DNA of 48,897 nucleotides, taken from contig NZ_VORM01000033.1 in assembly GCF_007997225.1 (NCBI RefSeq), positions 1 to 48,897 on the forward strand. The letters are read 5' to 3'. The position numbers and the translations under genes are program-made. A model generated the notes under the pieces. The model saw only the letters and a list, made by a program, of their open reading frames with translations. It made no database searches and was not told the origin of the DNA. Below are positions 961 through 16,934 of this stretch, piece by piece. Source of the stretch: Subsaximicrobium wynnwilliamsii. Lineage in GTDB: Bacteria > Bacteroidota > Bacteroidia > Flavobacteriales > Flavobacteriaceae. Each line of letters starts with the position of its first letter. The first letter of the stretch is position 1.

Positions 961-1151
961 TGGCTTTATTTAAAGGAATTTAAGATTTGGTAGTTTGGTG
1001 AGAACTTCCTTGTTCTTTTAAACGTATTCAGCGCTTAGATCTAGCTTCTTTTTTTTTAAAAATGTCGCAGCATGAATAAAACGACAATTTATTATAAGAA
1101 AGACTATGTTGATTTTGTTTTAATCTTCTGTTTCTAATTATATGAATAATT

Positions 1152-2070: not shown

Positions 2071-2115
2071 AGTGTCGCTTGCACAAAATGAAAAAGTGCA
2101 AGTGTCACTTGCACA
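2066..2115 (+). repeat. Duplicated hairpin at the repeat/YhcG junction
   Basis: Two near-identical inverted repeats stand side by side: TTGTGCAAG-tgtcg-CTTGCACAA at 2064-2086 and GTGCAAG-tgtca-CTTGCAC at 2097-2115. They encode the repeated VQVSLAQ of the YhcG remnant. The junction between direct-repeat copy 1 and the restriction fragment falls inside the first hairpin, so it is a plausible recombination scar. Confidence 0.6.
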
Positions 2116-2818: not shown

Positions 2819-2825
2819 TAAGGAT

Positions 2826-3991
2826 ATGGCAGAATACACCAACGTAGAAAAACCTTTTTTAGAGAAATTAAGAGCACTCAATTGGCGCATCATAGACCAA
2901 GGCAGTTTTGGTATTCCACAAGATCCTGCTAAAAGTTTGCGTACGAGTTTTAAAGAAGTTACGCTTAAAAAAGAATTTAAAAAAGCGGTTAAAAAAAAAA
3001 TAGCGTTAATGGCATTGCATGGCTAACCGATAAACAATTAGACGACTTATACAACGAAACGATAGCTGCCGAAAAAGCGAATTTGTCACTTTTGGAAGCC
3101 AATAAACAGGTTTTTGAAAAACTCATTGGCGTTACAAAAACAACGGTTGCAAAAAATGAAGTTACAGGAGAAGAAAATCCTTTAGTAAAATTGATCGATT
3201 TTAAACATTGGGATAACAATGAATTTGTAGCCATCAACCAATTTAGAATTGTAACACCAGGTGGCCCAAGAGAAGGGATCATTCCCGACATTGTGTTGTT
3301 CGTAAATGGTCTGCCGTTTTCTGTAGTTGAATGTAAAGATGTGGATGTCGCAGATCCTATTTCCAGTAGTGTGGAGCAATTAATGCGCTATGCCAATACC
3401 AGAGGAGATGATTTTGGATTTACGGATGGCGAGGAGCGTTTATTTCATTATAACCTGTTCAGTGTTGCTACACATGGTGAGGAAGCCCGAGCAGGTTCAA
3501 TCTCTGGAGATTTTGAATATTACTTAAACTGGAAAGATATTTTCCCAGAAGTATATAAAAATATAGATGTAGAGAGGTATGCAGCAGAAGAAACTGCGAG
3601 GTATCAAAATAACGGACTACAAAGTGATCCGAGAGTACGGCAAGAAGTATTAATACAAGGCTTATTAAACAAAGAGATTCTATTAGATGTCCTACAGCAC
3701 TTTACTTTATTTATGGAAATAAAAGAAGGTGTTGAATTCAAAATTGTGTGTCGTTATCAACAGTATAGAGCGGTTGGCAAAATAATAGACAGATTAAGAA
3801 ATGAGACTACTGGTAAAACACGCTCTGGGGTGGTGTGGCATACCCAAGGTTCTGGTAAATCTTTGACCATGGTGTTTTTTGTGCGTAAGTTACGCTCGCA
3901 AGACGACCTGAAAGATTATAAGGTTATTATGATGGTAGACCGTAAAGATTTAGAAAAACAACTCTCTGCAACCGCCCGTTTAACCAATGAG
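2826..3991 (+). pseudogene. hsdR: Type I restriction enzyme R subunit (HsdR), frameshifted and 3'-truncated
   Basis: HsdR is the DNA translocase and nuclease subunit of type I restriction-modification systems. The first piece (2826-3026) gives the standard N-terminus MAEYTNVEKPFLEKLRALNW followed by FGIPQDPAKSLRTSF. The frame then breaks at a run of ten A residues (2991-3000). Restoring the frame joins it to NGIAWLTDKQLDDLYNE and to the second piece, which carries the nuclease-domain strand FSVVECKDVD, the Walker A region VVWHTQGSGKSLTM and VIMMVDRKDLEKQL. Homology stops at SATARLTNE (about 3991). Everything downstream to 4075 is the antisense of a transposase fragment. Most of the helicase and C-terminal regions, and hsdM/hsdS, are absent. 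It cannot be active. Confidence 0.85.
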
Positions 3992-4126
3992 TTCAAACTT
4001 CTTTTTCCAGCTGTAGAATGTACCGGTACTCACACCGTGTTTACGGCAGCTCTCAACGATCCCTATCTCGTCTGAAGTCGATAGTATTTCCAACTTCTGC
4101 TCTAAAGTCCATTTCTTGTATTTCAT
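3992..4126 (-). pseudogene. IS3-family transposase OrfA, 5' fragment
   Basis: The minus strand from ATG at 4126 reads MKYKKWTLEQKLEILSTSDE, then IVESCRKHG and VSTGTFYSWKKKFE. This is a clear IS3-type OrfA helix-turn-helix start (basic N-terminus, ESCRKHGVS turn, FYSWKKKF recognition helix). It stops matching at about 3992, where hsdR sequence begins. It is a different element from the one at the left edge of the window (MRRNFDNEF). It explains why the hsdR frame seems to continue to 4075: those codons are antisense to this fragment. Confidence 0.8.
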
Positions 4127-4186
4127 ATCTCAAATATATTAATTTTGAAATCTAAAATATCACTCCGAACTTATTGGGGGCTAAAG
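3992..4186 (-). mobile_element. Insertion-sequence remnant between hsdR and repeat copy 2
   Basis: Contains the OrfA fragment (3992-4126) and its leader (4127-4186). The minus strand near the outer end reads TAGCCCCCAATAAGTTCGG, ending where direct-repeat copy 2 starts at 4187. The rest of the element (the remainder of orfA, orfB and the other end) is missing, so it is a one-ended remnant left by a deletion reaching into hsdR. Confidence 0.6.
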
Positions 4187-4190
4187 TAGT

Positions 4191-4336
4191 TTTCTCTCGC
4201 CAATCCCTTTTACATCAATTAATTCTGCTTTAGTTTTTGGCTTGGAATTTACCATTTCATGGAGTGTGGTATTACCAAAAACATGAAAAGTCTTTAATCC
4301 TCTCTCCAAAACATAATCAACCCTAGCTTCTCTAAG
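4191..4336 (-). pseudogene. HRDC-domain fragment, copy 2
   Basis: Same fragment as at 1152-1352, reading LREARVDYVLERGLKTFHVF and KGIGERK on the minus strand. It has diverged at four or five residues and is cut after GERKL by the insertion-sequence boundary at 4186. It has no start codon. Confidence 0.6.
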
Positions 4337-4528
4337 TTATTATTGAAGGGAATGACCGCTTAACATCTGATACTTTAAATAATTATAAAGAAGTTGTCAT
4401 CACAATAGTGCATACTGTTTTTTAAAGCATAACCACCAGGGAATATTTCTTATTAAACGGATCACGAAGTTCTAATTTATAAATGTTATTTTTGAAACCT
4501 AACAGCTGTTATCCTCAAATTTTAGTGT

Positions 4529-4918
4529 ATGCCGTATCAAGATGAGTTTGTCCTTTTTTGGGATCAAGTAAGGGAAAGCATCCATGACCGACGCTTTGCT
4601 AAATTAACCATGGCAAAAACCATCGGTAAACCTAATTTGAAAAACATTTTTGTCCGGCCAATTTACTCAGAAGACGGCTTTAAGGTGTTAGTGAAATTGC
4701 GCTATGCTTCTAAAGAAACCGAAGACGAGGAAAAGGAACTTACCCTGGAAGATGCTTTTGAGTTTTTAAAATCGCATCTTAAAGCACCTTTTTCAACAGT
4801 GCTTTTATTTACCACCACAAAAGATGTGACCTTCAAAATCAATAAGAAAGGTGCGGGCACAATTACTGAGAATGTGCCGACATTTCGCGACGTTACCCAA
4901 GCTAAGACTGATTTTTAA
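4529..4918 (+). CDS. Conserved-looking hypothetical protein, 129 aa, copy 2
   Basis: Paralogue of the protein at 1545-1934, identical except for N36 and A86. The start codon, length and flanking sequence are the same in both copies. No function is recognised. If the duplication arose by integration of a circular molecule through homologous recombination, one of the two copies is the resident gene and the other came in with the restriction fragment. The sequence does not show which. Confidence 0.7.
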   Translation: MPYQDEFVLFWDQVRESIHDRRFAKLTMAKTIGKPNLKNIFVRPIYSEDGFKVLVKLRYASKETEDEEKELTLEDAFEFLKSHLKAPFSTVLLFTTTKDVTFKINKKGAGTITENVPTFRDVTQAKTDF

Positions 4919-5082
4919 TAATTTAGGCGCCAGTATTAAGCTGCGATGATGCGTGCGTTTGGATATGTCGATGGCTTCTTTGTAAAAGTCTTTTTATAGT
5001 CTGACACGATAGGTATGACTTGATTGTATTTGAATGCGTAGTTTAAATTGTGCACGTGACATATCATAAGTTATTATCAGGG

Positions 5083-5128
5083 TATAGCCTGACTATTTAT
5101 GTAAATTAATCGGGCTATAGCCTGACTA
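5083..5128 (+). repeat. Pair of TATAGCCTGACTA direct repeats
   Basis: TATAGCCTGACTA occurs at 5083-5095 and 5116-5128, 33 bases apart, each preceded by a G-rich triplet. The second copy includes the palindrome GGCTATAGCC. They lie just downstream of the HipA-type kinase gene, which ends at 5178 on the minus strand. Their function is unknown. Confidence 0.5.
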
Positions 5129-5177
5129 AAGATTGATTGTATGAGGTAATAACATTGGTGAGCAGGAAGATTGGATT

Positions 5178-6119
5178 TTATTTTTTATCGAACGACCCAA
5201 TCATCTCTATTCTAGTTTCCAATAGAATCAAATACTTTTCTTTCATCTCATTTGAGAGAAAAGAAATTTCAAGCAGTTCTTTCCATTTTGGAGTTGCTTT
5301 ATTTAGTTGTTCTAATATAGTAGCAATTGTTTTTTCGTTAAGTTGGAGTCTTTCTTTAGCATAATAGTTGATGAAGTCAGATGCTTTCAAATTACTTTTC
5401 TTCCCTTTCAATGTGAGTGCAATTTCTTCTTCTGGATTTTTAATTGCTATGGTAGAGTTTAAGTAATCATATACAGGAGTGAGCGTAATTGTGCCATTTT
5501 TGGTAATTAGTGAAAAGTTTTTCAAATGCATATCTTCATTTCCTGTAACATAACAAAAAAGTACTCTTTTAAAAAAATCTGCTTTTTCAATGGCGGGAAA
5601 CGAACAATAGTCATCAAGTACAGGAATAAGTTTTTCCATCGTAAAACGATATTTAGTATCTCTTGTGTTGCCTGTTAACTGGGCAAAATCTTCGGTTGCC
5701 AATTTTTTTCCTTTGCCATAACGATCAAAACGCTTAATGAAATAGGATAAACTGTCATCTTTGCCATATAGCATACCATGAAATGGCACTTCTAAACCAA
5801 ACACTTTAGCCATTCGCATAGTGACATCTTCATTTTCTGGTAATTCTGGAAATAAATCATTTTGTGGTTTTATAATGTAGGTTCCAAATTGATCCACAAT
5901 TTTAAATTCTTGATCAACTATTGAAATAGCCGCACTAAGCTTTGGCTGTACGCCTTGAATGGAGAGCTTTTTAGCTCTATTTGCAGCTTCCTGGCGAAGT
6001 TCGGCCGCAGTATATGGTAAATCATTTAAATAAGTCAGCTTAGGAGCTATCATTCGAAGTCCTTTTGCACTGTATCTATCGGTACCACATAATTCGTAAG
6101 TAATAGGGCATCTATTCAT
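5178..6119 (-). CDS. hipT: HipA/HipT-family serine/threonine kinase toxin (kinase part only)
   Basis: HipA-like kinases phosphorylate aminoacyl-tRNA synthetases and stop growth. This 313-residue protein contains the kinase body without the usual N-terminal domain, which is encoded separately just upstream. Visible features are the glycine-rich ATP loop SIQGVQPKLS (53-62), IIKP with the ATP-binding lysine (about 84), the catalytic loop GNEDMHLKN (193-201; D196, K200, N201), and the metal-binding aspartate in TPVYDYLNS (D218). All active-site residues are present, so an active kinase is expected. Its start overlaps the stop of the upstream gene by 8 bases (ATGAATAG), implying translational coupling. 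Split HipA with a separate small subunit is the HipBST arrangement. The target synthetase cannot be read from the sequence. Confidence 0.85.
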   Translation of the reverse strand: MNRCPITYELCGTDRYSAKGLRMIAPKLTYLNDLPYTAAELRQEAANRAKKLSIQGVQPKLSAAISIVDQEFKIVDQFGTYIIKPQNDLFPELPENEDVTMRMAKVFGLEVPFHGMLYGKDDSLSYFIKRFDRYGKGKKLATEDFAQLTGNTRDTKYRFTMEKLIPVLDDYCSFPAIEKADFFKRVLFCYVTGNEDMHLKNFSLITKNGTITLTPVYDYLNSTIAIKNPEEEIALTLKGKKSNLKASDFINYYAKERLQLNEKTIATILEQLNKATPKWKELLEISFLSNEMKEKYLILLETRIEMIGSFDKK

Positions 6120-6426
6120 TATCGCTCAATTTAACCGTTACTGAGCCTACTAAATCATTTCCTGTAGCAATCAGTTGAGAGAAATAATCTTTTTTATCAA
6201 TTTTACCGATACGTAATAATCCTTCTAACATGACACCTTCAGGCAATAGACCTTCAAAAAAAGGAGGAAAGGATTTATAACTATATTTTTTATGACTTGT
6301 AGGCATAGTCAATGAAACTGCCGCACTTTCATAATGTTCATCATAGTTAAAACTATAATCGTTAGCAGATAGTTCTGTTAAAATCCCTGCTCTTTTTCCG
6401 TGGACAAATACAATTGCTCTTCTCAT
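6112..6426 (-). CDS. hipS: HipS-like protein (separate HipA N-terminal subdomain 1)
   Basis: This 104-residue protein corresponds to the N-terminal subdomain of full-length HipA (HipA_N/Couple_hipA family). Recognisable parts are the initial strand MRRAIVFVHGKRAGILTEL, the tract around YKSFPPFFEGLLPEGV (about 50-65) and the closing TGNDLVGSVTV (about 87-97). In HipBST systems the equivalent HipS neutralises the kinase. The same antitoxin role is inferred here from the arrangement only. It starts 2 bases after the stop of the HTH gene and overlaps the kinase gene, so the three are one operon. Confidence 0.8.
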   Translation of the reverse strand: MRRAIVFVHGKRAGILTELSANDYSFNYDEHYESAAVSLTMPTSHKKYSYKSFPPFFEGLLPEGVMLEGLLRIGKIDKKDYFSQLIATGNDLVGSVTVKLSDNE

Positions 6427-6428
6427 GA

Positions 6429-6638
6429 TTACTTAGTTAAAGGACTTTTAAATTCTACGTTAATATTCAGTACATGAAGTACTGCCAAAAGATTATTGAA
6501 ACGCACTGTTTCTTTATTTTTTTCAATATCAAAAACAGTGGTCTTACCTATTCCTGCTAAGTCGGCTAACTCAAGCTGCGTTAGTCCAGCATTTTTTCGG
6601 TGGTCTTTAATAAAAGCACCTAAATCAAGATCATTCAT
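6429..6638 (-). CDS. hipB: HipB-like XRE-family HTH regulator
   Basis: A 69-residue Xre/HTH_3 protein: MNDLDLGAFIKDHRKNAG, then the helix-turn-helix LTQLELADLAGIGKTTVFDIE (about 20-40), and a C-terminal helix ending FKSPLTK. I place the start at 6638 rather than at an in-frame ATG at 6758. The 40-codon extension would be hydrophobic, low-complexity and unlike HipB, and it would run through two of the three palindromic operator sites. It probably represses its own operon by binding the 14-bp palindromes at 6644-6798, the first of which begins 5 bases upstream of this start. First gene of the hipB-hipS-hipT operon. Confidence 0.8.
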   Translation of the reverse strand: MNDLDLGAFIKDHRKNAGLTQLELADLAGIGKTTVFDIEKNKETVRFNNLLAVLHVLNINVEFKSPLTK

Positions 6639-6643
6639 TATAT

Positions 6644-6657
6644 ACTGTTTTAGCAGT
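6644..6657. promoter_or_regulatory. HipB operator candidate O1
   Basis: ACTGTTTTAGCAGT, an imperfect palindrome with arms ACTG/CAGT inside a 16-base TACTG...CAGTA frame. It lies 5 bases upstream of the hipB start, where a bound repressor would block the promoter or initiation region. Confidence 0.65.
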
Positions 6658-6714
6658 AAAAATATGAAATTCATTGATGGAATTATAATAAAATATTTAA
6701 AACAATTGAATATG

Positions 6715-6728
6715 ACTGTCATAGCAGT
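6715..6728. promoter_or_regulatory. HipB operator candidate O2
   Basis: ACTGTCATAGCAGT, 71 bases upstream of O1. It shares the ACTGT....GCAGT pattern with O1 and O3. Confidence 0.65.
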
Positions 6729-6784
6729 AATTAATGGGCTATTAATATGAAAAATCACATATTTAAAGAGTAAAAGGGTTGATT

Positions 6785-6798
6785 ACTGTCATGGCAGT
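6785..6798. promoter_or_regulatory. HipB operator candidate O3
   Basis: ACTGTCATGGCAGT, 70 bases upstream of O2 and identical to it at 13 of 14 positions. The regular spacing suggests cooperative binding or looping by HipB. Confidence 0.65.
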
Positions 6799-7364
6799 AA
6801 ATAGTGGGGTTGTTGAATAGATGGCATCAGTTTCAATTTGATTCGTAAGCCATAACCTATTTCTAAAAATAATGAAATTGCAGAATGCTACCTGATATTA
6901 AGTTTTATCTACTAAAAATATAAATACTGAATGAACTCAGACTCCTCAATTGTTCTCTAAGTATCATAATCCTATAATTTAAAAGAGTCATGTTATCTGA
7001 AACACTAAAAGTTCATTATTTCAATTGTCTTATTTTTGCAATAAATAGTCAAAAAATTTAATTTCATTTTTTATAGTATCTCTTAGTTTCTCATTAAATC
7101 CCCACTTTGTGCAACATATGCACCACATAACCTTTGCGAATCCCTATAAACCCTAGGTTTTAAAATACTGCATCGGGAAGTGAGTGATTTGGCCAGTTGC
7201 TTTTTCACATGCTAGCATTGCTCATTCCGAACATTTGCGCATTATGAGGTTTATGCTATTTTTACACAAAATAAACTGCTGTAGAAACAGCCCGTTAAGA
7301 GCTAGAGCGTCTAAAAAAGCTGGCTAAGCTTATTAAATTCAAAACTAATTAAAAACAAAACTAA
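6799..7364. other. Intergenic stretch, no gene seen
   Basis: 566 AT-rich bases between the hip operon and the next gene. No open frame with recognisable content is visible on either strand. A TATTTTTG box near 7031 could be a -7 promoter element for the plus strand, but it is more than 300 bases from the next start and has no clear -33 partner. Confidence 0.5.
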
Positions 7365-7709
7365 ATGATATTACTTCCCACCATTAACAGAAGCGTATTG
7401 CTTGTCATCCCAAAACAACCTTTTTACGATTGGAGCAATAAGCTATTTCCAGATTTAGAACCAACCAATATGGCAGATATCGATGAGTACAACAGCTACT
7501 TGTTAGAAGACGAACTCTTTATAGATGATCCCAAAGGCGAATTGAAATCTTACTGGAAAAAGATTTTTCTCAACGAACTCTATGAGCAATGTATGGACGA
7601 AACGACGTTTCCTGCTTTAAGTTGGAAGCTATTTACCCAATGGTTCGATTTTCACAGATCTGCCGTCGTGAGCGATTTGACTAGCGACCCACTTTATACC
7701 GATGAATAG
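7365..7709 (+). CDS. Hypothetical acidic protein, 114 aa
   Basis: I do not recognise this small protein. It starts with ATG at 7365 after an A-rich leader, as is common in Bacteroidota. It is acidic and rich in W, F and Y (YDWSNKLFPDLEP, YWKKIFLNELYEQ, SWKLFTQWFDFHR), with no signal peptide or membrane segment, so a cytoplasmic globular protein is likely. It stands alone between two long gene-poor stretches, and codon use gives no sign of decay. Confidence 0.6.
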   Translation: MILLPTINRSVLLVIPKQPFYDWSNKLFPDLEPTNMADIDEYNSYLLEDELFIDDPKGELKSYWKKIFLNELYEQCMDETTFPALSWKLFTQWFDFHRSAVVSDLTSDPLYTDE

Positions 7710-8606
7710 GAGTAATATACATGTTATATAGTTGGAAAGTAACTTTCGACGATGTGCGGCTTGCCTTCCGAAGTCCTATCAGAAAATCCAGAATTTAAAT
7801 GAACGAAGCTAGACTGGACTCCTAAGGCTTGTGAACTGAAACCCATAAAAAAGCTTAGCTCTAAAATTGGTAACGGGCTATACGCAACCCCCAAATAATC
7901 AGAGCACACTGAATATGACCTCTATCAATGAGCCTCCAGATATCATCGCTTTTTTCTATACTAAAAAAATTCTACTTGGTAAAAGTGTAAGATTAATAAT
8001 TGCCCACAGAAACCATAAGCCGCCAAAAACCCACCTCAATATAGCATCCTCGGAGTCCCCATAAAATTGGTGTCTTGCTTGATGTTGGCACCAGCACTTG
8101 AGTATCCCACCGCGACGAAGCTATCAACCCGGCCAATGCTCAGGTAATTCGCTTCGATTTGTGCCAGTGATTTCGGTTTCATTGTGCCAACTATTTCGGT
8201 TCAAAACTTGCCATTTTAACTGTGTGGTAAATAACGATAATGCTTGCCAAGTTCACGCTTTTTGTAGTTAGCTTATCAAAATTAAGCTAAAATATTTAAT
8301 TTTAAATGTTCAATTGGTGTCTGTATTTTGTCAATTTTGCACAATCCATGTTTAAAATGATATCCCTTTAATTGAGCAAGAATCGCTAAACAATTATGCT
8401 CCTTTTCAACTTATAAAATTTCAATTTTGCAAGTGTTTTATTGCCTAGGTAATGCAAAATTATTAGGCTTTCATTGCATGAAGATTTATAGTCAAGTTGA
8501 GAAGGCTAATTGTAAAATGCTTCAATTAAGTGCTTTATGGCCATCGATTTTCGACAAAAAATTTGAATTATTTCAGCAAAATTAAAGAGCAACGAATTCT
8601 TTTCGA
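7710..8606. other. Gene-poor stretch with possible mobile-element remnant
   Basis: About 900 bases without a convincing gene. Short open frames at 7724-7909 (minus), 7867-8064 (plus) and 8036-8182 (minus) match nothing I recognise. Two structures are visible: degenerate tandem repeats at about 8138-8225, and a perfect 8-bp inverted repeat TTAGCTTA-tcaaaat-TAAGCTAA at 8268-8290. The last 300 bases are strongly AT-rich and lead to the promoter of the DUF4062 gene. Confidence 0.5.
8138..8225 (-). repeat. Degenerate 21-24 bp tandem repeats, possibly an IS21-like end
   Basis: Read on the minus strand, four units follow each other with the pattern AAAT..nTGGCACAA..GAAACCG: ending TTTTGAACCG, ATGAAACCG, ATCGAAGCG and TTGGCCGGG. 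The middle two contain AGTTGGCACAATG and CACTGGCACAAAT. Multiple subterminal repeats of about this size are typical of IS21-family ends, so this may be the scar of one. No istA or istB homology is visible, so the assignment is tentative. Confidence 0.3.
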
Positions 8607-8635
8607 TTGAATACCAGTAAAAAAGTTTATATTTA
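8607..8635 (+). promoter_or_regulatory. Bacteroidetes-type promoter of the DUF4062-STAND operon
   Basis: TTG at 8607-8609 and TATATTTA at 8628-8635 with an 18-base spacer, close to the consensus TTG-N19-TAnnTTTG, 17 bases before the start codon at 8653. Confidence 0.45.
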
Positions 8636-8652
8636 GTCAATAGAATCACTGT

Positions 8653-10359
8653 ATGAAAACCATCCGAATTTTTATTGCGTCCTCTTCTGAATTGAAAGAT
8701 GATCGAGATCAATTTCGAAAGTTTATCAGCATGGAAAACGATAGGCTACATACTAAAGGCGTCTATCTGGAAATTGTGCAATGGGAAAATTTTCTCGATG
8801 CCATATCTGATACGAGACTTCAGGATGAATATAATAATGCCATTAGCAACTGTGATATTGTGCTTTGCCTGTTTTTTACAAAAGTTGGCAAGTATTCCTC
8901 AGAAGAATTTGATACGGCCTATCAGGTTTTTAAAGATAAGGGGAAGCCAAAAATATGGACCTATTTTAAAGATGCCCAGATCAATACAGGTTCAATTACC
9001 GATGAAATCAATACGCTCTTGGCCTTCAAGAAAAAAATAGGAAGCCTTGGCCATTTTTATACCAAGTACACCAATATCGATAACCTGATCAATCAATACA
9101 GATCACAACTTGATAAATACCTGCCTGCATTCGAAACGAATTTTGGAGCTCAGAAGGAGCTACCCCATAATGCTGACGCCCCACAACCTGCAGAAAAACC
9201 AATTGAAAACACCTTCAACGATGTCCTTACCAAAAGCTTGATTCAAGCAATTAAACCCTACGACCGTAAAGCGAATGATTTTTTATCAACCTATGCAGAT
9301 TGGGAGAAAAATAAAGATTTGGTGCCTACCGTAAAGCGTATTATTATCTCTGGTTATGTTGGTGTCCTGGGGATGCAACTGCGTAAATTGATGTCGATTG
9401 GCGAAGAAGACTTTTCAGATTATAAGATGAAAAGATATCTTGAAAATTGCCATCTAACAGCGCTAAGGGCTTTACAACTTATATGTTATGCACTCATCTC
9501 ATCTTTATGGGATAACCATTTAAAGAACAAACTCAAACTTTCTAATGACCAGAATAGTGTTTTGATTAAGTTTTTTAAGAACGCTACCGATGAAAGTATC
9601 AAGGGTTTAACAGCCTTGTCAAAAACTTTGATCACCGTTTTTCTTGATAATCAATTGGAGTTCCCCATTGCCGAACTGAAGGACTTTTTGCCCAAGTTGC
9701 AGGCAGGCAACGATTTGTCTACTGCTTGTGCTGATTTAAATACGGTAGCTGAGTTGTTGGATGGCACTTCCTATACATTAGTCGACTGCGCAAATGCCGA
9801 AAAAAATCTAGCCATTTTACTGGAAAGCCTGAATTTTTTGGTTGCGTATAAAATGATTTCCATAAAGGACATAGATTACAGTTTTCAACGAAACGATAAA
9901 GAAGGTTTTTATCTACATCATTATACCTTATTGGATGGCGATAGTCAAGCCAGCACGAATAAATACGGAAAAATAAGAAAGGACAGCACACCAGTCACTT
10001 CCTATGCAGTTTTGCTTTTTAAAGATAATTATCAGAAAAATATAAATTTAGTGCCATTCGTTATTGACTATAATGGGTTGGCAGATGCTGGTGGATCAAA
10101 AATTTGCTTTTACTCATTTTGCAATACCTTCGATGATATGAATCTGAACTATAATTTTATTGAGGATAATAGCAAGGTAACCATCAAAAAATCTGGCAAT
10201 ATGAAGCCTGATGATACTGATGTTCGAGCAATCAATAACTGGTTATCAGATAAAGAGAATCGAAAGGACATGAATTTTGATAATGTGTTTGACCTGTTCT
10301 ACAAAGCAAAAAAAGCGCTCGTAGGTATAGAAGAAGATACTGAAATGGATGAATTTTAA
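8653..10359 (+). CDS. DUF4062 (TIR-like) domain protein, partner of the downstream STAND ATPase
   Basis: This 568-residue protein begins with a DUF4062 domain, a TIR/flavodoxin-like fold common in bacterial conflict systems. Residues 3-24 give the hallmark strand and loop IRIFIASSSELKDDRDQF, followed by VQWENFLDA (42-50), the strand CDIVLCLFF (67-75) and SSEEFDTAYQVF (82-93), where E84 or E85 occupies the place of the TIR-type catalytic glutamate. KPKIWTYFK (98-106) closes the domain at about 125-150. Residues about 195-400 are mostly helical and 400-568 form a mixed region; I recognise neither. No signal peptide or membrane helix is seen, so it should be cytoplasmic. It lies 26 bases upstream of the ATPase gene and shares its promoter. 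An NAD-cleaving or nucleotide-processing effector role is an inference from fold and context. Confidence 0.75.
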   Translation: MKTIRIFIASSSELKDDRDQFRKFISMENDRLHTKGVYLEIVQWENFLDAISDTRLQDEYNNAISNCDIVLCLFFTKVGKYSSEEFDTAYQVFKDKGKPKIWTYFKDAQINTGSITDEINTLLAFKKKIGSLGHFYTKYTNIDNLINQYRSQLDKYLPAFETNFGAQKELPHNADAPQPAEKPIENTFNDVLTKSLIQAIKPYDRKANDFLSTYADWEKNKDLVPTVKRIIISGYVGVLGMQLRKLMSIGEEDFSDYKMKRYLENCHLTALRALQLICYALISSLWDNHLKNKLKLSNDQNSVLIKFFKNATDESIKGLTALSKTLITVFLDNQLEFPIAELKDFLPKLQAGNDLSTACADLNTVAELLDGTSYTLVDCANAEKNLAILLESLNFLVAYKMISIKDIDYSFQRNDKEGFYLHHYTLLDGDSQASTNKYGKIRKDSTPVTSYAVLLFKDNYQKNINLVPFVIDYNGLADAGGSKICFYSFCNTFDDMNLNYNFIEDNSKVTIKKSGNMKPDDTDVRAINNWLSDKENRKDMNFDNVFDLFYKAKKALVGIEEDTEMDEF

Positions 10360-10385
10360 GACGTTTTTTATTAAAAATCAATGCT

Positions 10386-12356
10386 ATGAAAAAATACCCC
10401 TTTAAATTTCTGGATTCTTATAAAAGGGAAGATAGGGGCATATTTTTTGGCCGTGATGAAGAAATAAGTGCACTCTACGAGATGGTTTTTCAGTCATCGG
10501 TCATTCTTATCTATGGCGCATCTGGTACTGGTAAAACAAGCCTTATCAATTGTGGGCTGGCCGGTAAATTCCAACCGCATGATTGGCTCGCATTGATGAT
10601 ACGCAGAGGAAACAACATCAACAAATCACTAGAAAAAGCACTTGAGGATGCCGGTGGGAACTCATTAGACCCAGTAGTTGGAGTCAATTGGTCGAACGAA
10701 TGGTCTGATGATGCTGAAAAAAGCAATAAGGAGTTAAGTGCGGTTGGAAAATCTATAAATGCGGTTTACCAAAAGTCGTTCAGACCTATTTATTTGATTT
10801 TCGATCAGTTTGAAGAACTCTTCATACTTGGTACAAGAGCAGAGCAAGACTTGTTTATCAAAACGGTTCAGGATATACTCCAATCGCAGCAACCAGTAAA
10901 GCTGATTTTTTCTATCCGGGAGGAATATCTAGGGCATTTGTCGCACTTTGAAAGGGAAGTGCCTCAACTTTTGAGAAAAAAATTGCGCATTGAACCAATG
11001 AATCTTGAAAAGGTAAAACAAGTCATCATTGGTGCAACAGCGTATAACGATTCCAATATTAGCATCAAGTCTGGGGAATCTGATTTGGTTGCTGAAGGGA
11101 TTTTTGACAAGATAAAAGGAGAAGAAAAGTCCTTGACCATCCAATTGCCATTTCTTCAGGTGTTTTTAGATAAATTTTATCTGAAAATCACAGGAGATGA
11201 AAGCCGCAGCACCGAAGCGGAATTTAACGTGGCTACACTTAATGATATGGGAGAAATTGGTGATGTGCTCATCGATTTCTTAGAAGGTCAGGTGGCTGGA
11301 ATTTCTAATAAACTTAAAGAGAGGTACCCGGTTTTAGTGCCTGATATGATTTGGAGAATATTGTCTCCGTTTTCAACACTTGAAGGAACTAAAGACCCAA
11401 TAAGCAAACAAGATTTGTATGAACGCTTGCCTAATTTGGACAGAACCTTGGTTGATGCCGTAGTGGGAGATTTTATCAATAGCCGTATACTACGCTATAA
11501 TGACACTAATGAAATGTTCGAAATTGCGCATGATGCACTCGCCAAACCCATTGCAGAAAAGCGTAGTGTTGAGGAAACCGCACAATTGGAGATCAAACGG
11601 CTTATAAAAAGTCAGGTTGCCGTAAAAGAAGAGGGTCGAGAATTCTTTACCGAAAAGCAATTAGTGTTCATTGAACCTTACTTAGAGAAGTTCCCTATAA
11701 GTGATGAAGAGCGCGAATGGATTTCTAAAAGCAGGTCTCATGTTACAAAAGAGAAACTTAAAGATATAGATAGGCAATATGCCGAAATATTAAAGAAGAG
11801 ACGAATAACCATACTTTCTGTTGCTATTGTGGCACTTTTGCTTTTAATTACCACAACCGTTTTCTTCGCAATTGAGGCAAGAAAAGAAGGCATTGTTGCA
11901 GAGCAGGAAAAAGTCAAATCCCAAAATGCTGAAAACAATACCAAGGAATTATTGAAATTAGTGATGCAGGGGCGTGGGGAACAATACGTCAATCAAAACG
12001 ATAGCTTACTTATGGAACAACTACGTATTGAGCAGACCTACCCCATTGATAGTTTGATTGTCCCAAGGGCATCGGTGAGTCCTTCCAATAAAGGGAGTGA
12101 GAACCGAAACTATATGCTATGGGTTGACGTGCCATCCTTCAGAAAATATGAAATCAAGCAAGTGAATTATAAACTTTGTAGTGGCTTTGTGGATCGCCTA
12201 AGGGTTTCAAATGAACCATCGTCTTCGTTTTCAATTGGATATCTTGGATATGGGTATTGTCCGATAATTGATATTGATGTAATTCTACAGACAGGAGATA
12301 CCATAAAGAAAGTGTTTTCGTTTGAAGATTTTTTCAGGGAAAATCCATTGCCTTAA
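10386..12356 (+). CDS. Membrane-anchored nSTAND-type NTPase with C-terminal pYEATS-like domain
   Basis: 656-residue signal-transducing NTPase. FLDSYKREDRGIFFGRDEEI (9-28) is the standard entry of nSTAND1 modules. Walker A is GASGTGKTSL (44-53), Walker B LIFDQFEELF (137-146, D140), and the sensor tract is IFSIREEYLGHL. The typical winged-helix and HD-type motif FEIAHDALAKPIAEKR lies at about 377-392. A single transmembrane helix, ILSVAIVALLLLITTTVFFA, follows at about 473-495, then a short coiled coil and a C-terminal beta domain (about 572-650: MLWVDVPSFRKYEIKQVNYK, then GYGYCPIIDIDVIL) that resembles the prokaryotic YEATS family. STAND proteins act as ATP-driven switches that oligomerise on sensing a trigger. 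It forms an operon with the DUF4062 gene. If the ATPase is cytoplasmic, the C-terminal domain is periplasmic. Confidence 0.75.
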   Translation: MKKYPFKFLDSYKREDRGIFFGRDEEISALYEMVFQSSVILIYGASGTGKTSLINCGLAGKFQPHDWLALMIRRGNNINKSLEKALEDAGGNSLDPVVGVNWSNEWSDDAEKSNKELSAVGKSINAVYQKSFRPIYLIFDQFEELFILGTRAEQDLFIKTVQDILQSQQPVKLIFSIREEYLGHLSHFEREVPQLLRKKLRIEPMNLEKVKQVIIGATAYNDSNISIKSGESDLVAEGIFDKIKGEEKSLTIQLPFLQVFLDKFYLKITGDESRSTEAEFNVATLNDMGEIGDVLIDFLEGQVAGISNKLKERYPVLVPDMIWRILSPFSTLEGTKDPISKQDLYERLPNLDRTLVDAVVGDFINSRILRYNDTNEMFEIAHDALAKPIAEKRSVEETAQLEIKRLIKSQVAVKEEGREFFTEKQLVFIEPYLEKFPISDEEREWISKSRSHVTKEKLKDIDRQYAEILKKRRITILSVAIVALLLLITTTVFFAIEARKEGIVAEQEKVKSQNAENNTKELLKLVMQGRGEQYVNQNDSLLMEQLRIEQTYPIDSLIVPRASVSPSNKGSENRNYMLWVDVPSFRKYEIKQVNYKLCSGFVDRLRVSNEPSSSFSIGYLGYGYCPIIDIDVILQTGDTIKKVFSFEDFFRENPLP

Positions 12357-12384
12357 AAAATAGAATTGTATATTTTATAGAAGC

Positions 12385-13974
12385 CTAATTCCTAATGAGC
12401 TTGCTTAATCCAGCTTTTTTTAAATGATCTTGCACTTTAACGTTTCCGCTTAAATCGAGCATGGGAACCTGACCAACATCGTTTTGGTGAAAATGGTAAA
12501 CCAATACAGTAAGATTCTTATTAGGCAGCGTTTTGTTTTTCAGGGCATCAGGAAGTGCTGGATGGCTATTTTTCAACAAGGTCTCTGCGCCACCAGGTGT
12601 TAATGCAACGCTACTGATCCTAACTTCTTCTGAAGCGATTATAATTGCAAACATTCTAAATTCTGACTCTATTTCGAAGAAGAGCGATTTGAATATTTCA
12701 TAATATGAAAATTTGCCGTCGCCACCCAAGTTTTTGACCCAACGCTTAGAATCTTCAATAGCTGAGCCATCTTTATTAAATTTCTCCAAACTTGTGGTCA
12801 TTGCAAATCCGTCTAAGTCATAATAATAGTGTAATCTATTCTTATAGCCTGCACTTGTAAATAGGTTGCTTATATACGTGTCAACCTTGCCTAAAGTCAC
12901 CAATTCTGGTTTGAAATTTTTAAAGGTTGCACTAGCAGAAGGCAAAGGAGCTGGGTTAGGAAAAAAATATTGCCTTGGTGCAGCAATGTTTTGTCCCACA
13001 CTAGCATCTATGACGCCATCAAGATCGGTATCCGTAATGTCATCCAAAGCGAATTTCTTTTGGAGTTCCTTGTACAAGGCATCACAAACTTCAGGATTTA
13101 ATTCTTTTGTAATGAAAGCATCCTCTTCAAACTGGTTCTTATTATCAACAATATCATAATAAAAACTATCGTATGCCTTATAAAGTCGCAGAATCTCTGT
13201 TGGGCTTAACTCTTTTGTGTATTGGTTTGATGCCATATATTTAAGTTGAAGATATCTCGCAATCAAATCCAACTTCAAATCCAATTGGTAATTTTGAGCG
13301 ATTGAATTAAAATTAAAACCTTCATAACTTGGCTCAGTCTCGATAATTGACAAGTCTAAGGATAAATCATAAAGTGAGGCAAAATAGGTAAGTTTGTCAA
13401 AATCGTATGTTTTTGAACGTTTTGCTTTATAAAATAGTCGTTTGAAATCTGGGTAAATATCAGTGTTGAAATAGGGCGTGAATTCTTTTTTGAGTGCATT
13501 GATATTCCAACGTAATTCATCGTACAGTTTTTCATCAAAATTTATCAATTGATAAAATACATTTTCTCCATTTGTAAAGTAATTAGAGAGGTTATAATGT
13601 GCTATTGCTTTTTTCAAATGATCATGCCACTGGATTAAAATATCTCTTTCAAGAGTTTTTGATTTACTTCTGAAAAGTAATTTTGCCTCGTTGAAGTATA
13701 ATAATGAATACGTGAAATTAAAGAGCGTGGAATTTTCACTGATAAAGATGGAGTCTTTTATAGATTTCAATTCATCAGTTTCAAAAGGAAGAATTTTTGA
13801 AAGCCGTTCATCACTTAGTTTGTCGAAATAATCTTTAGTCAAAGACAAGTTTATGTAGGCTTGCGCAAGTGTGATGGAATCATTTTTAAATACTTGAGAA
13901 GCGTCTTGTGCATTTAATTGAATTGAAGCAATTAAAAAAAACAAGTACAGGATTAATTGGTTGTAAACTTTCAT
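12385..13974 (-). CDS. Secreted protein of unknown function, convergent to the STAND operon
   Basis: 529 residues with a clear signal peptide (MKVYNQLILYLFFLIASIQ, cleavage after LNA, about residue 22) and no sorting domain or further membrane helix, so probably periplasmic. I do not recognise the family. The N-terminal 300 residues are helical and rich in Y, F, L and K. Near residues 311-320 there is a short calcium-loop-like DTDLDGVID, then a proline-rich linker (FFPNPAPLPSAS) and a mixed C-terminal domain ending KAGLSKLIRN. It converges on the STAND gene with only 28 bases between the stop codons. It could be a periplasmic partner of the pYEATS-like domain, but nothing in the sequence proves a link. 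Confidence 0.65.
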   Translation of the reverse strand: MKVYNQLILYLFFLIASIQLNAQDASQVFKNDSITLAQAYINLSLTKDYFDKLSDERLSKILPFETDELKSIKDSIFISENSTLFNFTYSLLYFNEAKLLFRSKSKTLERDILIQWHDHLKKAIAHYNLSNYFTNGENVFYQLINFDEKLYDELRWNINALKKEFTPYFNTDIYPDFKRLFYKAKRSKTYDFDKLTYFASLYDLSLDLSIIETEPSYEGFNFNSIAQNYQLDLKLDLIARYLQLKYMASNQYTKELSPTEILRLYKAYDSFYYDIVDNKNQFEEDAFITKELNPEVCDALYKELQKKFALDDITDTDLDGVIDASVGQNIAAPRQYFFPNPAPLPSASATFKNFKPELVTLGKVDTYISNLFTSAGYKNRLHYYYDLDGFAMTTSLEKFNKDGSAIEDSKRWVKNLGGDGKFSYYEIFKSLFFEIESEFRMFAIIIASEEVRISSVALTPGGAETLLKNSHPALPDALKNKTLPNKNLTVLVYHFHQNDVGQVPMLDLSGNVKVQDHLKKAGLSKLIRN

Positions 13975-14809
13975 TTTTTATCTCATTAATTTGTTAGTGA
14001 CGTAAAAAAATCTGTAAAACTTTGAAAAAGCAGTTTTCATCCTCTTTAAGTTATTACATCCCTTCAGAGGGTTTTATTCCCCGAGGTCTTGAAACACAAA
14101 GTACATCTTTCAATTCATAGCTTGTGGGCTTGCCCCGAGGGTATTGATTTAAACCTGATTATCTTGTATGGACCAGTTTCAGTTTAAAAATGCTATAAAA
14201 TTGGATAAATGATTTTTCCATTTAAGGATTTCCATTTTTTACTGATTATTCTCGTAATTGTTTCACAAAACTTGAATCAATTGTGATATCTACCCAATTG
14301 CTGTGATTATAAATTGGCGGAACTGCTTTGTAAAAATAGTTAAGCTACAAGTAGGTACTGGAAAAAGGGCTTGATTCATTGAACAAATTACACAATCAAG
14401 AGATTAAGGTTGAACATGTTATAAGTTAAAGGTAGTGAAATTTGGGTTTGAAAAGACAGAAGATATTATTTATAAAAAAGTAGAATTACGACTTTTTGAA
14501 TGATTTGGACAATGCCGATGATGATCCTAGGGAAGACCATGCATAGCGACATCCTAATTACCCAAAACCAAAACGGTTCTACCAACATAAATTTTCGCTT
14601 GGATGCAGCAAGCGTTTGAGTTGTTTGAAAAAACGCTGAAGTCAGCATAAGCAAAGCTCTAAAAACTTTTTGAAGATGGGAGCGATGTTTCAGAACGAGG
14701 TTGGTCGGGAATACCAAACAAGCAGTTCAGAATCTTCAAAGGGAGGAATCCCAATTCAACTATAAATTATCAAACCACTTATTACTATTTTAAAATAATT
14801 TTTTTTTAG
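13975..14809. other. Intergenic stretch, repeat copy and no gene
   Basis: 835 bases between divergently oriented genes. It contains a copy of a dispersed repeat (14061-14150). The segment 14470-14760 has some coding-like character (the plus strand gives DLDNADDD, NYPKPKRFYQHK and EVGREYQTSSS between stops) but is interrupted in every frame. It may be a decayed gene that I cannot identify. Confidence 0.5.
14061..14150 (+). repeat. Dispersed intergenic repeat family 1, copy A
   Basis: Shares with 27001-27096 (and partly 22276-22333) the ordered blocks CAGAGGGTT, CCGAGG, ACAAAG, TTTCAATTCAT, CTTG.GGGCTTGCCC and TATTGATTT. It is non-coding, with short self-complementary blocks such as GGGCTTGCCC. 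Confidence 0.75.
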
Positions 14810-14838
14810 TTGGCACATCGTAAAAAAAGCTACATTTA
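14810..14838 (+). promoter_or_regulatory. Promoter of the lipoprotein gene
   Basis: TTG at 14810-14812, an 18-base spacer, and TACATTTA at 14831-14838, 23 bases before the start at 14862. It has the same geometry as the promoter at 8607-8635. Confidence 0.45.
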
Positions 14839-14861
14839 TTAAAAAAATAATTGGGTCGTTT

Positions 14862-16934
14862 ATGAAGGCAAAAGTCTATCTCCTCCTGCTTGCACTGTGT
14901 TGTTTTTCCCTGTCTTGCGACAACGATGATGATGCCCCAAATTCAGAATCTAATTTTTACAGTGGTGCATTGACTTCTGCTTCCGCTGCCGATTTAACCG
15001 GTGTTTGGGCCATATTCAATGTGGGCTTTCAGGGAAACATCGCAGAAGTGCCCGTTGTTTACGAAGCGTGCGGACGGGATTTTCTCGTGTTTTCTGAGAA
15101 TGGCATTTATACGGAATACCTATACCAACACAGTGGCTGCGAGTACCATTTGAATAGCTTGAACTGGGCATTGAATAATGGCATTATCAACTTGTCCAAC
15201 CAATTTGGCCAAAGCGACGAACTGGTCATTACCCGATTGAACGCTAATGAACTTGTGTTCAAATCCTTGTTCGATGTGGATGAAGATGGTGATTTAGATA
15301 TCGTAAGCTTATATCTAAAACCATATACGCCAAATGAGATTGATATGGTAAGCCCAACTTTTACAGATCATCCAGATGCCGCTTTTGATCAACTCCTAAG
15401 TTTTACCTGGCAGTCTTACCAAGGCTTTAACGATTTTGAGCGCTACGAGATTTATCGAAGTGCTGGCGATAATTGCAGCATTTCCAATGCCGAACTCATC
15501 GCGAGCATTAGCGATGTAAATGCAACCGAATTTACCGATTTATCGCCGCCAACGGAAGACTATTTGTGTTACCATCTCAAAGTCTATACAAATCTCGGAC
15601 TTCTGGGCCAGAGTTATGCGTACACCATAAATACGGAAAACTTGAATCCCCAACCCGTGACTCTCAATACGCCGGAAGTTTTGAATTACAGCATTCAATT
15701 CAATTGGCAAGCCAGCGCCGATCCTTATTTTTCGCATTATGAACTGGCATTTTCGAATTATGATGGAGGCACTGCCTCAGGACAACAAGTATATTCGGTG
15801 GCAATTATCAATGATCGGGAGCTTACCACATTTCTGGATGAGAATCCGCCTTATCTGGAGCATCCGTATTACGTGCTGTATGTGCATAATATCTTCGGAA
15901 ACCGGAGCTCTTTTTACAATTCGCAGGTCACCACGTATCATGAGGTGGCTTTTAAACGGCCGGAGATTATCAATTTTCAGAAGGTGGAATCCTATGCCAT
16001 CGATACTGAAAATACCATCGCTTATTTCTACGGAAGGGAGAGTGGGGCAGGGAATACAATGAATATCCATCGCTTTAATTACAGCACCAATCAAACGGAA
16101 GCCATCTCCAATTTGGCACCTCAATATGCTACTAGCGTTCCAATCAAATATATCGATTCTGGTTATGGTCCGGAAATTGTTGTAGAGCAGGCGTCTGATT
16201 TAGCAGTTTACAATGCCACCACTTTACAATATAAATATACTCTGGAAACCTCGGTGCCTGGCGTGGATGATTTTTTGTATTCGGAGTTGGGCTATTGGAT
16301 TTTTGTGAATAATGATAATATCTATACACTTACCCGAGATAATGCCAATTTGGATTTGGTGGATACCAAGCCCCATTTCCCAAATCATCAAGGCAGTTAC
16401 AATTACCAAGGCTTTGCACTAAACAACAACAAACTATTGGTGGGCTATAACAACGAGGACACGAGCTACCTCTATGCAGTGGCAACCAATGGGTTGATGA
16501 GTCAGGAGCAAATTGTCCCCATTCCAATATTGGATAATTGGGAGCATGAGTCCCAGTATAATGCGGCAGGAAATTACCTGATCAATTTTTCAGAAAACAG
16601 ACTCTATTCAACCAATACCTTTGCTTTACTGCAAAGCTTTGAATCCCCGTATTTCCCATCGGGCACGAGTCAAGATGGTACCCTTATTTTTGGATCCAAC
16701 AATGATCCAGATTGGCAAATTACCCCAGAGAGCATCCACGCGAAGGAAGCGGTTATTTATAACCGAATGACCCAGCAAGCCAGCACAATTTCAACCATTG
16801 GCTACCCGCACATCATTTTTGAAAATGCTTTTGGGGAGCTTGTTTCGATTTCCAGCGGCTTGAAAAAGGATGACATAAGACAAAACATCAACAACAAAGC
16901 CGATATTTTCTTAGAGATCATCCAGTTGCCTTGA
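14862..16934 (+). CDS. Surface lipoprotein with a fibronectin-III-like domain
   Basis: 690-residue lipoprotein. The signal MKAKVYLLLLALCCFSLSC ends in a lipobox with the lipidated cysteine at 19. The acidic tail DNDDDAP directly after it resembles the Bacteroidota signal that sends lipoproteins to the cell surface. Residues about 40-165 form a first domain of unknown type. About 170-265 reads as a fibronectin-III-like fold (LSFTWQSYQGFNDFERYEIY, then CYHLKVYTN), and a second similar stretch follows at about 268-355 (IQFNWQASADPYFSHYELAF). The last 330 residues have a repetitive strand pattern that could be a propeller. No catalytic motif is visible, so a binding or structural role is more likely than an enzyme. 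It has its own promoter and stands alone. Confidence 0.75.
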   Translation: MKAKVYLLLLALCCFSLSCDNDDDAPNSESNFYSGALTSASAADLTGVWAIFNVGFQGNIAEVPVVYEACGRDFLVFSENGIYTEYLYQHSGCEYHLNSLNWALNNGIINLSNQFGQSDELVITRLNANELVFKSLFDVDEDGDLDIVSLYLKPYTPNEIDMVSPTFTDHPDAAFDQLLSFTWQSYQGFNDFERYEIYRSAGDNCSISNAELIASISDVNATEFTDLSPPTEDYLCYHLKVYTNLGLLGQSYAYTINTENLNPQPVTLNTPEVLNYSIQFNWQASADPYFSHYELAFSNYDGGTASGQQVYSVAIINDRELTTFLDENPPYLEHPYYVLYVHNIFGNRSSFYNSQVTTYHEVAFKRPEIINFQKVESYAIDTENTIAYFYGRESGAGNTMNIHRFNYSTNQTEAISNLAPQYATSVPIKYIDSGYGPEIVVEQASDLAVYNATTLQYKYTLETSVPGVDDFLYSELGYWIFVNNDNIYTLTRDNANLDLVDTKPHFPNHQGSYNYQGFALNNNKLLVGYNNEDTSYLYAVATNGLMSQEQIVPIPILDNWEHESQYNAAGNYLINFSENRLYSTNTFALLQSFESPYFPSGTSQDGTLIFGSNNDPDWQITPESIHAKEAVIYNRMTQQASTISTIGYPHIIFENAFGELVSISSGLKKDDIRQNINNKADIFLEIIQLP

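Follow-up and report, generated by a model that had tools for sequence, protein, structure and literature searches.

In a window of 48,897 nucleotides from Subsaximicrobium wynnwilliamsii (contig NZ_VORM01000033.1, the whole stretch of DNA analysed), we found a three-gene unit that may act as a membrane-anchored STAND immune switch, in which an envelope event would be sensed and a DUF4062 NADase fired; judging from sequences and predicted models, we give this reading close to even chances. Gene 1 (8653..10359, + strand, 568 aa) encodes a DUF4062 (TIR-like) effector domain followed by a C-terminal adaptor module, gene 2 (10386..12356, + strand, 656 aa) encodes an nSTAND1 ATPase, a transmembrane helix and a pYEATS domain, and gene 3 (12385..13974, - strand, 529 aa) encodes an exported-looking protein and is convergent with gene 2. 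The preliminary description of this DNA cast the ATPase as switch, the DUF4062 protein as effector or adaptor and the YEATS-like part as sensor; sequence and models support this assignment, with DUF4062 as the effector. By its sequence, this bacterial unit appears related to the immune receptors of animals and plants.

An adjacent gene pair and a convergent third gene

The two forward-strand reading frames were confirmed as real and correctly read genes, separated by 26 bases (10360..10385, + strand). When the most upstream start of gene 2 was taken, the gap was 11-34 bases in the 19 other loci where the beginning of gene 2 is complete (the raw script counts are 4 larger, as they start at the final sense codon of gene 1). 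We obtained 447 homologues of protein 1 among 7986 candidates scored, and gene 1 and gene 2 were adjacent in 21/21 loci, which excludes a chance origin of the pair; its co-occurrence in other genomes, on which the preliminary description had staked its proposal, therefore holds. The single promoter proposed for the pair found no support, as a sigma-70 scan of 7700-12700, a model that does not cover Bacteroidota-type promoters, gave 12 sites versus 15.4 expected.

The pair stood, but the proposed two-gene layout had overlooked gene 3, whose reading frame ends 28 bases from that of gene 2. A homologue of gene 3 was found in the same position in 17/17 pYEATS loci. Searches of gene 3 against Pfam and PDB gave nothing beyond chance, and no Pfam family came near its cut-off. 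Gene 3 is duplicated in locus L018; its alignment (A5) used only the second copy from this locus and left out L009. It could be argued that gene 3 owes its position to shared descent alone and lies outside the system, given that it is convergent and not co-transcribed with the pair and that 14/17 loci come from one genus. However, gene 3 is likewise found with the pair in the window genome, in Mariniflexile (L002) and in Pareuzebyella (L006), where the flanks lack the Algoriphagus site genes described below. Moreover, it is absent from all three non-pYEATS DUF4062 loci, one of which was only partly testable, and from 17 empty Algoriphagus sites, and elsewhere in the class it matched, weakly and partially, in 1 further genome of 395. 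We consider mere descent highly improbable, and sequence comparison suggests that the unit comprises three genes, with gene 3, throughout the loci examined, going only with the YEATS version.

Protein 1 carries a predicted NADase domain

The TIR-like DUF4062 domain covers residues 1-163 of protein 1 (8653..9141, + strand). DUF4062 (PF13271) was matched by hmmscan with an E value of 1.1e-4 and 22.8 bits, slightly below the 24.7 cut-off, and with 26 bits, above this cut-off, in a six-frame Pfam search. Fold comparison of the predicted model recovered a TIR fold, so that profile and fold both bear out the domain first assigned to protein 1, while a sequence comparison of protein 1 with solved structures gave chance-level matches only. 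E84 and E85, previously named together as candidate catalytic residues, are each retained in 119/120 close homologues. Among 10 divergent DUF4062 domains, E85 alone was invariant (10/10); E84 was accordingly dropped as an invariant residue, leaving E85 (codon 8905..8907, + strand) as the predicted catalytic glutamate on the basis of conservation among DUF4062 domains. Sequence and model together lead us to predict that the DUF4062 domain is an NAD-destroying effector, although the AF2 model of the domain has low confidence around the active site (pLDDT <50 at residues 45-57 and 77-86), which counts against this reading.

The domain might alternatively be an enzyme of the nucleoside-hydrolase/deoxyribosyltransferase type, or lack catalysis and serve as an adaptor. 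In the fold comparison, nucleoside deoxyribosyltransferase-type chains ranked alongside the TIR chains, and 3/4 human DUF4062 proteins assayed were without NADase activity (PMC13174449). On the other side stand the invariance of E85 and the NAD+ hydrolysis shown for KpSwz and human TEP1, which required the matching glutamate (PMC13174449), and we regard a DUF4062 domain without NADase function as rather unlikely here.

An adaptor module is shared with other effectors

Residues 186-568 of protein 1 (9208..10356, + strand), its C-terminal two thirds, form a module, named DUFC here, that is helical and then beta-rich in the predicted model. The VIA-align fold comparison scarcely covered residues 165-568, and we therefore make no statement on the fold of this module. 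No Pfam family came near its cut-off when 18 members were scanned, and comparison with PDB sequences gave chance-level matches only. The large C-terminal part originally left unassigned is thus indeed without a Pfam match, but it can be described as a distinct adaptor module, because CHAT, caspase and effector-less proteins carry it in the absence of DUF4062. On the CHAT proteins the dyad positions are retained in 25/25, and in locus L165 the adaptor is fused to a caspase and adjoins EACC1. A broad adaptor profile matched 3/395 genomes of a phylum sample, and the profile of protein 1 matched 14/395 genomes of the class, the match lying in the adaptor part in 11 and being confined to the TIR-like part in 3. 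We rejected the notion that a STAND partner goes with every adaptor, since no STAND neighbour was found at 11 adaptor loci (the nine caspase-type loci L162-L170, of which L169 was viewed on one side only, plus L059 and L064).

Protein 2 couples a STAND ATPase to a YEATS-fold domain across a predicted membrane helix

The nSTAND1 family (PF20703) matched protein 2 with 143.1 bits versus a cut-off of 27.1. In an alignment of 37 sequences, G44 and S46-S52 of the Walker A motif (residues 44-52; 10515..10541, + strand) were invariant and A45 nearly so, and the Walker B aspartate D140 (10803..10805, + strand) was invariant, in agreement with the intact ATPase reported at the outset. The STAND part of the model resembles NLRP3, NOD2, Apaf-1 and CED-4. 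For comparison with the antiphage STANDs Avs and bNACHT, in which a cytosolic STAND recognises phage proteins directly, proteins 1 and 2 were scanned with PADLOC (E 0.1), and neither matched Avs.

The single transmembrane helix, earlier drawn at residues 473-495, was recovered with its best hydrophobic 19-mer at residues 476-494 (11811..11867, + strand) and a basic stretch immediately N-terminal to it. The hydrophobic segment is present in 143/147 relatives, and 138/143 of these show an excess of K/R on the ATPase side of the helix (6.4 vs 3.0 K/R). Because the helix is conserved and the charge biased, the ATPase most likely lies inside and the YEATS domain outside the membrane, a topology read from the hydrophobic segment and K/R counts.

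The C-terminal domain (residues 551-656; 12036..12353, + strand) matched pYEATS (PF20305) with 53.1 bits versus a cut-off of 26.9, and a YEATS fold was recovered from its template-free model. The fold check that the preliminary description had named thus came out in favour of a YEATS-like domain. When PDB was searched with the YEATS sequence, none of the matches up to E 10 was a YEATS chain, and the assignment therefore rests on Pfam pYEATS and the fold comparison. Two of the three cysteines of protein 2 lie in this outer domain and are conserved (C598 in 76/77, C625 in 77/77); when further pYEATS proteins were surveyed for this pair, 4/247 genomes turned up, too small a number to judge by. 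Within the G-Y-x-G loop (618-621), G618, Y619 and G621 are retained in 85/85, and F601 is retained in 83/85. Sequences and models mark this domain as the variable, presumed sensor part.

If the hydrophobic stretch were re-entrant or peripheral, the C-terminal domain could be cytosolic and would bind an intracellular target, either an acylated protein or one from a phage, much as acyl-lysine is read by eukaryotic YEATS domains. In favour of this view are the YEATS fold itself and the usual cytosolic location of WD40 sensors. The conserved loop and F601 also bear a general resemblance to the aromatic pair F59/Y78 described for AF9 (PMC6212594). Against a cytosolic domain are the one strong hydrophobic helix with its unequal flanks, the two conserved cysteines, the exported-looking partner at every pYEATS locus, and the signal-like N-termini, judged by eye, of neighbours in six other loci. 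We hold this placement to be decidedly unlikely.

A patchily distributed cassette with probably exchangeable parts

The three-gene unit is patchy in Algoriphagus, being present in 12/72 genomes. In 13 Algoriphagus loci it occupies one chromosomal site between GH113 and GH109, and this site was empty in 17/19 relatives fetched and held CRISPR-Cas9 in one; the three genes are gained or lost there as a single cassette. Another insert at the site (L123) is not defence-like, and the single protein of it that was scanned with PADLOC gave no match. Since the unit is flanked by sugar-metabolism genes and in most cases stays at this site, the location in Algoriphagus is not a classic gene-rich defence island. 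Across 51 inferred pairs the sensors differ (YEATS, WD40, LRR and Lcl_C), and sequence comparison suggests that a common chassis can be fitted with a different effector (CHAT) or a different sensor (WD40, LRR, Lcl_C).

The same parts could serve a purpose other than phage defence, as a switch for envelope stress or for developmental cell fate, which would lower NAD+ or impose dormancy according to the cell's own periplasmic state, with the exported protein reporting on that state. The constancy of the GH113/GH109 site is in line with this. So is the outcome of searches in mobile DNA: phage records gave no relative, a pattern-based scan of IMG/VR viral contigs found 5 stretches fitting a pattern and none that was a relative, and plasmids gave no full protein and a single TIR-only match, in Acaryochloris. 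One genome scan used only two short peptide patterns and thus favours close relatives. Furthermore, two effector-less adaptor+STAND loci adjoin TPR/SpoIIE genes, one of them also near CsgG, which suggests a signalling role and counts against the defence reading. However, the scarcity of carriers in Algoriphagus, the empty sites together with CRISPR-Cas9 at the same junction, the exchange of sensors among relatives, and the restriction and toxin-antitoxin genes in the window (YhcG-type PDC-S02, truncated HsdR and HipBA) argue against a cell-fate switch, and we consider it unlikely, if less so than the alternatives weighed above.

Proposed mechanism

For the favoured immune switch, we envisage that, before any stimulus, the ATPase is kept inactive by the exported protein together with the YEATS domain, or else that the exported protein is itself what the switch guards, or carries the ligand. 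The trigger would be an event at the envelope, most likely the adsorption of a phage or the entry of its DNA; it would alter the contact between the exported protein and the YEATS domain, after which the ATPase would bind ATP and assemble in the membrane. Through the adaptor, the assembled ATPase would pack the DUF4062 domains together, and these would hydrolyse NAD+, leading to cell death or growth arrest before phage release. A bolder and more doubtful version, which we put forward tentatively, is a trans-envelope inflammasome that acts before or during phage entry and not after it: a STAND receptor with an exchangeable periplasmic sensor, here a YEATS fold watching or held by an exported partner, would on its cytosolic side drive interchangeable killing enzymes (DUF4062 NADase or CHAT protease) through an adaptor shared with EACC1 systems. 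If true, a common adaptor would link NADase, CHAT and caspase effectors, prokaryotic YEATS domains would gain a role, and envelope-facing NLR-like receptors in bacteria would become a testable idea.

Comparison with known systems

No description of this gene pair was found in the open-access article text searched, though it may be listed in a supplement; the searches likewise gave no match for pYEATS together with STAND, or for an antiphage STAND combining transmembrane, periplasmic and NADase parts. The claim that the system is undescribed holds only in part: DUF4062 as a defence NADase is already known from Swarozyc (preprint, May 2026; PMC13174449), whereas the membrane STAND three-gene layout appears to be new. 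That work assayed phage defence in E. coli for five DUF4062 proteins built differently from the one here; protection was strong chiefly for two, and KpSwz, whose NAD+ hydrolysis was shown, is one of those assayed (PMC13174449). Swarozyc shares the N-terminal DUF4062 TIR-like domain, the conserved glutamate, and predicted NAD+ depletion and abortive infection. It is, however, one protein, and its HTH/winged AUX domain binds the phage portal, whereas here a C-terminal adaptor goes with a separate membrane STAND ATPase carrying the presumed sensor, plus an exported-looking third component. Comparison of the C-terminal part of protein 1 covered Pfam and PDB sequences, neither of which gave a match, and its predicted model is helical and then beta-rich. 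We rejected a filing as Swarozyc, because a STAND partner gene lies adjacent in 21/21 loci.

The two-gene membrane conflict system of EACC1 described by Kaur et al. 2020 (PMC7159879) likewise combines a membrane-associated constant component with swappable domains, and the caspase-fused adaptor in L165 provides a link to it. In contrast, it is the STAND protein that forms the membrane component of the present unit, and a scan of 13 proteins of the window, from 205 to 16931, found no EACC1 or caspase match; without an EACC1 gene in the window, filing as an EACC1 system was rejected. An exchangeable C-terminal putative sensor is also described for nSTAND1 proteins with lectin-like putative antigen sensors diversified by retroelements (PMC10907252). 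Compared with those proteins as described there, the unit here has a separate effector gene, a single membrane helix between ATPase and sensor, and YEATS instead of CLec.

In eukaryotes, TEP1, NWD1, NWD2 and NPHP3 carry DUF4062 beside NACHT, several with WD40. The likeness lies in the coupling of DUF4062 to a STAND-type NTPase and in the WD40 sensors of relatives of this system. If our reading is true, the DUF4062-STAND-sensor plan of human TEP1/NWD1/NPHP3 would be split into separable bacterial parts for laboratory study. The bacterial version differs in being divided between two polypeptides, in having nSTAND1 and not NACHT, and in its membrane helix and YEATS sensor.

Domains of the first two genes

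The preliminary description placed two genes, 26 bases apart, behind one promoter. Both genes (gene 1, 8653-10359; the STAND gene, 10386-12356; both on the forward strand) and the 26-base gap were found; however, a sigma-70-like promoter scan gave fewer sites than shuffled sequence, leaving the single promoter unsupported. The proposed DUF4062 domain of the first protein was confirmed by a Pfam match at residues 5-81, which scored 22.8 bits by hmmscan, slightly below the cut-off, and 26 bits in a six-frame search, above it. Residues 2-162 also matched PDC-S60, a PADLOC candidate defence family (4.4e-13). The nSTAND ATPase and pYEATS-like C-terminus ascribed to the second protein were likewise recovered (Pfam nSTAND1, 143.1 bits; pYEATS, 53.1 bits). 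For the candidate catalytic pair E84/E85, each residue was kept in 119 of 120 close homologues of the gene 1 protein. However, in a set of 10 divergent DUF4062 domains, drawn from ROCO-type and other fusions, from L046 (a locus of another genome) and from the window, only E85 was invariant, and the residue before it was S, G or Q in three, so that E85 alone stands as the candidate. DUF4062 also lies C-terminally in long proteins at three loci (L020:5304-8480, L021:5319-8486 and L048:5238-8033); the two scanned, from L020 and L048, are LRR-Roc-COR (ROCO) proteins.

Gene 1 is paired with a STAND gene, and a third gene accompanies pYEATS

A genome scan for relatives of gene 1 gave 21 loci, 18 with a full-length protein and three (L019-L021) with the TIR-like part only, within other proteins. 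A STAND gene adjoined full-length gene 1 in 18 of 18 (at L016 the contig stops inside it). With the window, L046 and L134 included, the two genes were adjacent in 21 of 21 loci, in agreement with the co-occurrence expected from a neighbourhood search, and the gap was at most 34 bases in all 20 loci having a complete start. The adaptor module (residues 186-568 of the gene 1 protein) occurred once per genome in all 13 genomes searched whole.

Downstream of and convergent to the STAND gene lies gene 3 (12385-13974, reverse strand), a 529-aa ORF with a signal-peptide-like N-terminus, as judged by eye, for which a Pfam scan found no family. A homologue 34-67% identical occupied the corresponding position at 15 of 15 pYEATS loci from the genome scan, and at 17 of 17 with the window and L134 added and the truncated L016 left out. 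Gene 3 was absent at L003, L005 (a partial case, since its contig stops ~680 bases past the STAND gene) and L046, whose STAND proteins all lack pYEATS. It was matched in 2 of 395 genomes of the class, namely the window's own and one weak partial match, and its product was the least conserved of the three in all nine comparisons with the locus L011 that include gene 3. Its N-terminal part is partially duplicated in tandem at L009:11724-14297 and L018:11730-14252 (841-858 aa).

A hydrophobic 19-mer past the ATPase part was identified in 143 of 147 STAND proteins (120 database proteins and 27 locus ORFs, overlapping sets that are not independent). The other four comprised one truncated protein, one just under threshold and two products of split genes, each the C-terminal half, for which the hydrophobic segment falls outside the scanned range. 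Within 15 flanking residues, K/R were more numerous towards the ATPase than beyond the helix in 138 of the 143 proteins, equally numerous in 4 and fewer in 1 (means 6.4 vs 3.0). The window STAND protein has three cysteines, C56 in the ATPase (conserved in 77/77) and C598 (76/77) and C625 (77/77) in the YEATS part, and in six related loci the gene adjoining the STAND gene showed, by eye, a signal-like N-terminus. Together with gene 3, these features favour a sensor that would face outward.

The three genes occupy a defined site in Algoriphagus

The adaptor module was present in 12 of 72 Algoriphagus genomes. At 13 Algoriphagus loci the three genes were flanked by GH113 on one side and by a GH109-type oxidoreductase gene on the other, with an extra 892-aa ORF inside the interval at L017; at L009 the cassette is elsewhere or the flanks were not reached. 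From the 60 Algoriphagus genomes without the cassette, 24 were searched for GH113, which was found in 23, and 19 of these were inspected. The site was empty in 17 of the 19, GH113 and GH109 being adjacent with gaps of about 0.2-1.1 kb. At L120 the junction holds a type II CRISPR-Cas9 system (3029-10742) made up of cas9, cas1, cas2 and a repeat array, in which 23 copies were counted at a spacing of mostly 76 bases, and at L123 the gap is filled by other genes, two of which, from their first residues, we take to resemble SusC/SusD. Since the three genes sit jointly at a site that is otherwise mostly empty, they behave as a single unit, and one other species has a defence system at this position.

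In the window genome, Mariniflexile and Pareuzebyella the cassette has flanks that differ from the Algoriphagus site. In the window it has among its neighbours genes for a YhcG-type nuclease (PDC-S02) and for the N-terminal part of HsdR, as well as a HipBA operon. The YhcG/DUF1016 ORF, which begins within the N-terminal domain, and the 330-aa HsdR piece, which together occupy 2066-4075 upstream of the cassette, are probably remnants of restriction-type genes. The HipBA-type toxin-antitoxin operon (5178-6758) encodes HipA as two overlapping ORFs (Couple_hipA, HipA_C) and a HipB-like regulator. Further along, a 3305-aa ORF spans 34616-44533 and is preceded by large ORFs (1064 and 1102 aa).

Presumed sensors and effectors are exchanged around the STAND core and the adaptor

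In 17 complete loci the STAND core (residues 1-450) was 62-84% identical to that of the window, and the part past the membrane helix varied among STAND relatives (pYEATS, Lcl_C (PF07603), WD40 and others). L046 has LRR with a weak WG repeat there; L003 and L005 have a short tail without a family, followed at L003 by a separate 919-aa WD40 gene. Among the matches listed, 51 pairs, which were inferred from contigs of identical length and are no unbiased census, comprised 35 pYEATS, 4 Lcl_C (one, P0209, assigned by eye), 3 WD40 and 9 with another or no sensor.

The adaptor was also found in proteins without DUF4062, and no Pfam family covers it. An example query of the CHAT type returned 28 proteins, 27 annotated as CHAT and one not; the query was built from CHAT-adaptor proteins, and this ratio therefore says nothing on how common CHAT is. 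H74 and C110, which we take to be the catalytic dyad of the CHAT part, were kept in 25 of 25 aligned CHAT-adaptor proteins. All 10 testable CHAT-adaptor loci had a STAND gene that adjoined the CHAT-adaptor gene or was one gene removed from it (L047 stops at the end of its contig; L069 and L174 are closely related). For caspase-type adaptor proteins (L162-L170, e.g. L165:7723-9955), a STAND gene was nearby in 0 of 9 (L169 seen on one side only). Pfam identified Peptidase_C14 in both proteins scanned, and eight of the nine loci had an upstream gene of 123-135 aa with one hydrophobic segment, the single one scanned being EACC1. Adaptors without a recognised effector had a STAND gene nearby in 10 of 12 testable cases, the exceptions being L059 and L064; L159 and an L061 fragment were left out of this count. 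By these neighbour counts the adaptor is a coupling part common to several classes: with DUF4062 or CHAT it is tied to STAND, and with caspase it lies near EACC1.

Some effector-less adaptor-STAND pairs lie near TPR-SpoIIE (L052, L053), CsgG (L052) or TPR and HEPN_STY4199 (L062), and may represent a branch of this chassis that serves signalling. At L055:7052-9958, a 968-aa protein combines two nSTAND-like ATPase stretches with an adaptor; its gene neighbours one for a CHAT-adaptor protein and another STAND gene.

Proposed mechanism and relation to known systems

Ligand sensing leading to STAND ATPase assembly is established (PMC7159879), and DUF4062 of KpSwz, a Swarozyc system, and of human TEP1 is described as a TIR-like NADase activated by assembly (PMC13174449). 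Beyond the parts list and its co-inheritance, which we observed, we infer from the anatomy every step of the most likely chain: an envelope event would change the gene 3 protein or the YEATS domain, the STAND ATPase would assemble in the membrane, driven by ATP, the DUF4062 domains would become clustered, and NAD+ loss would be followed by growth arrest or death.

In the portions of the literature searched, we did not meet the fixed DUF4062-adaptor/nSTAND1 pair, an outward sensor on such a STAND protein, an exported-looking third gene product with such a pair, the GH113-GH109 cassette site or the shared adaptor module, which an earlier supplement may name; within that scope all five appear new. 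The conserved G-Y-x-G loop and F601 of the YEATS part resemble the aromatic pair with which AF9 binds acyl-lysine (PMC6212594); acyl reading by this domain is a lead only. Already known are pYEATS, as a Pfam family, DUF4062 as a defence NADase (PMC13174449), nSTAND1 and its role in conflict systems (PMC8195603, PMC10907252) and EACC1 (PMC7159879), to whose published systems the caspase-adaptor proteins connect the adaptor module.
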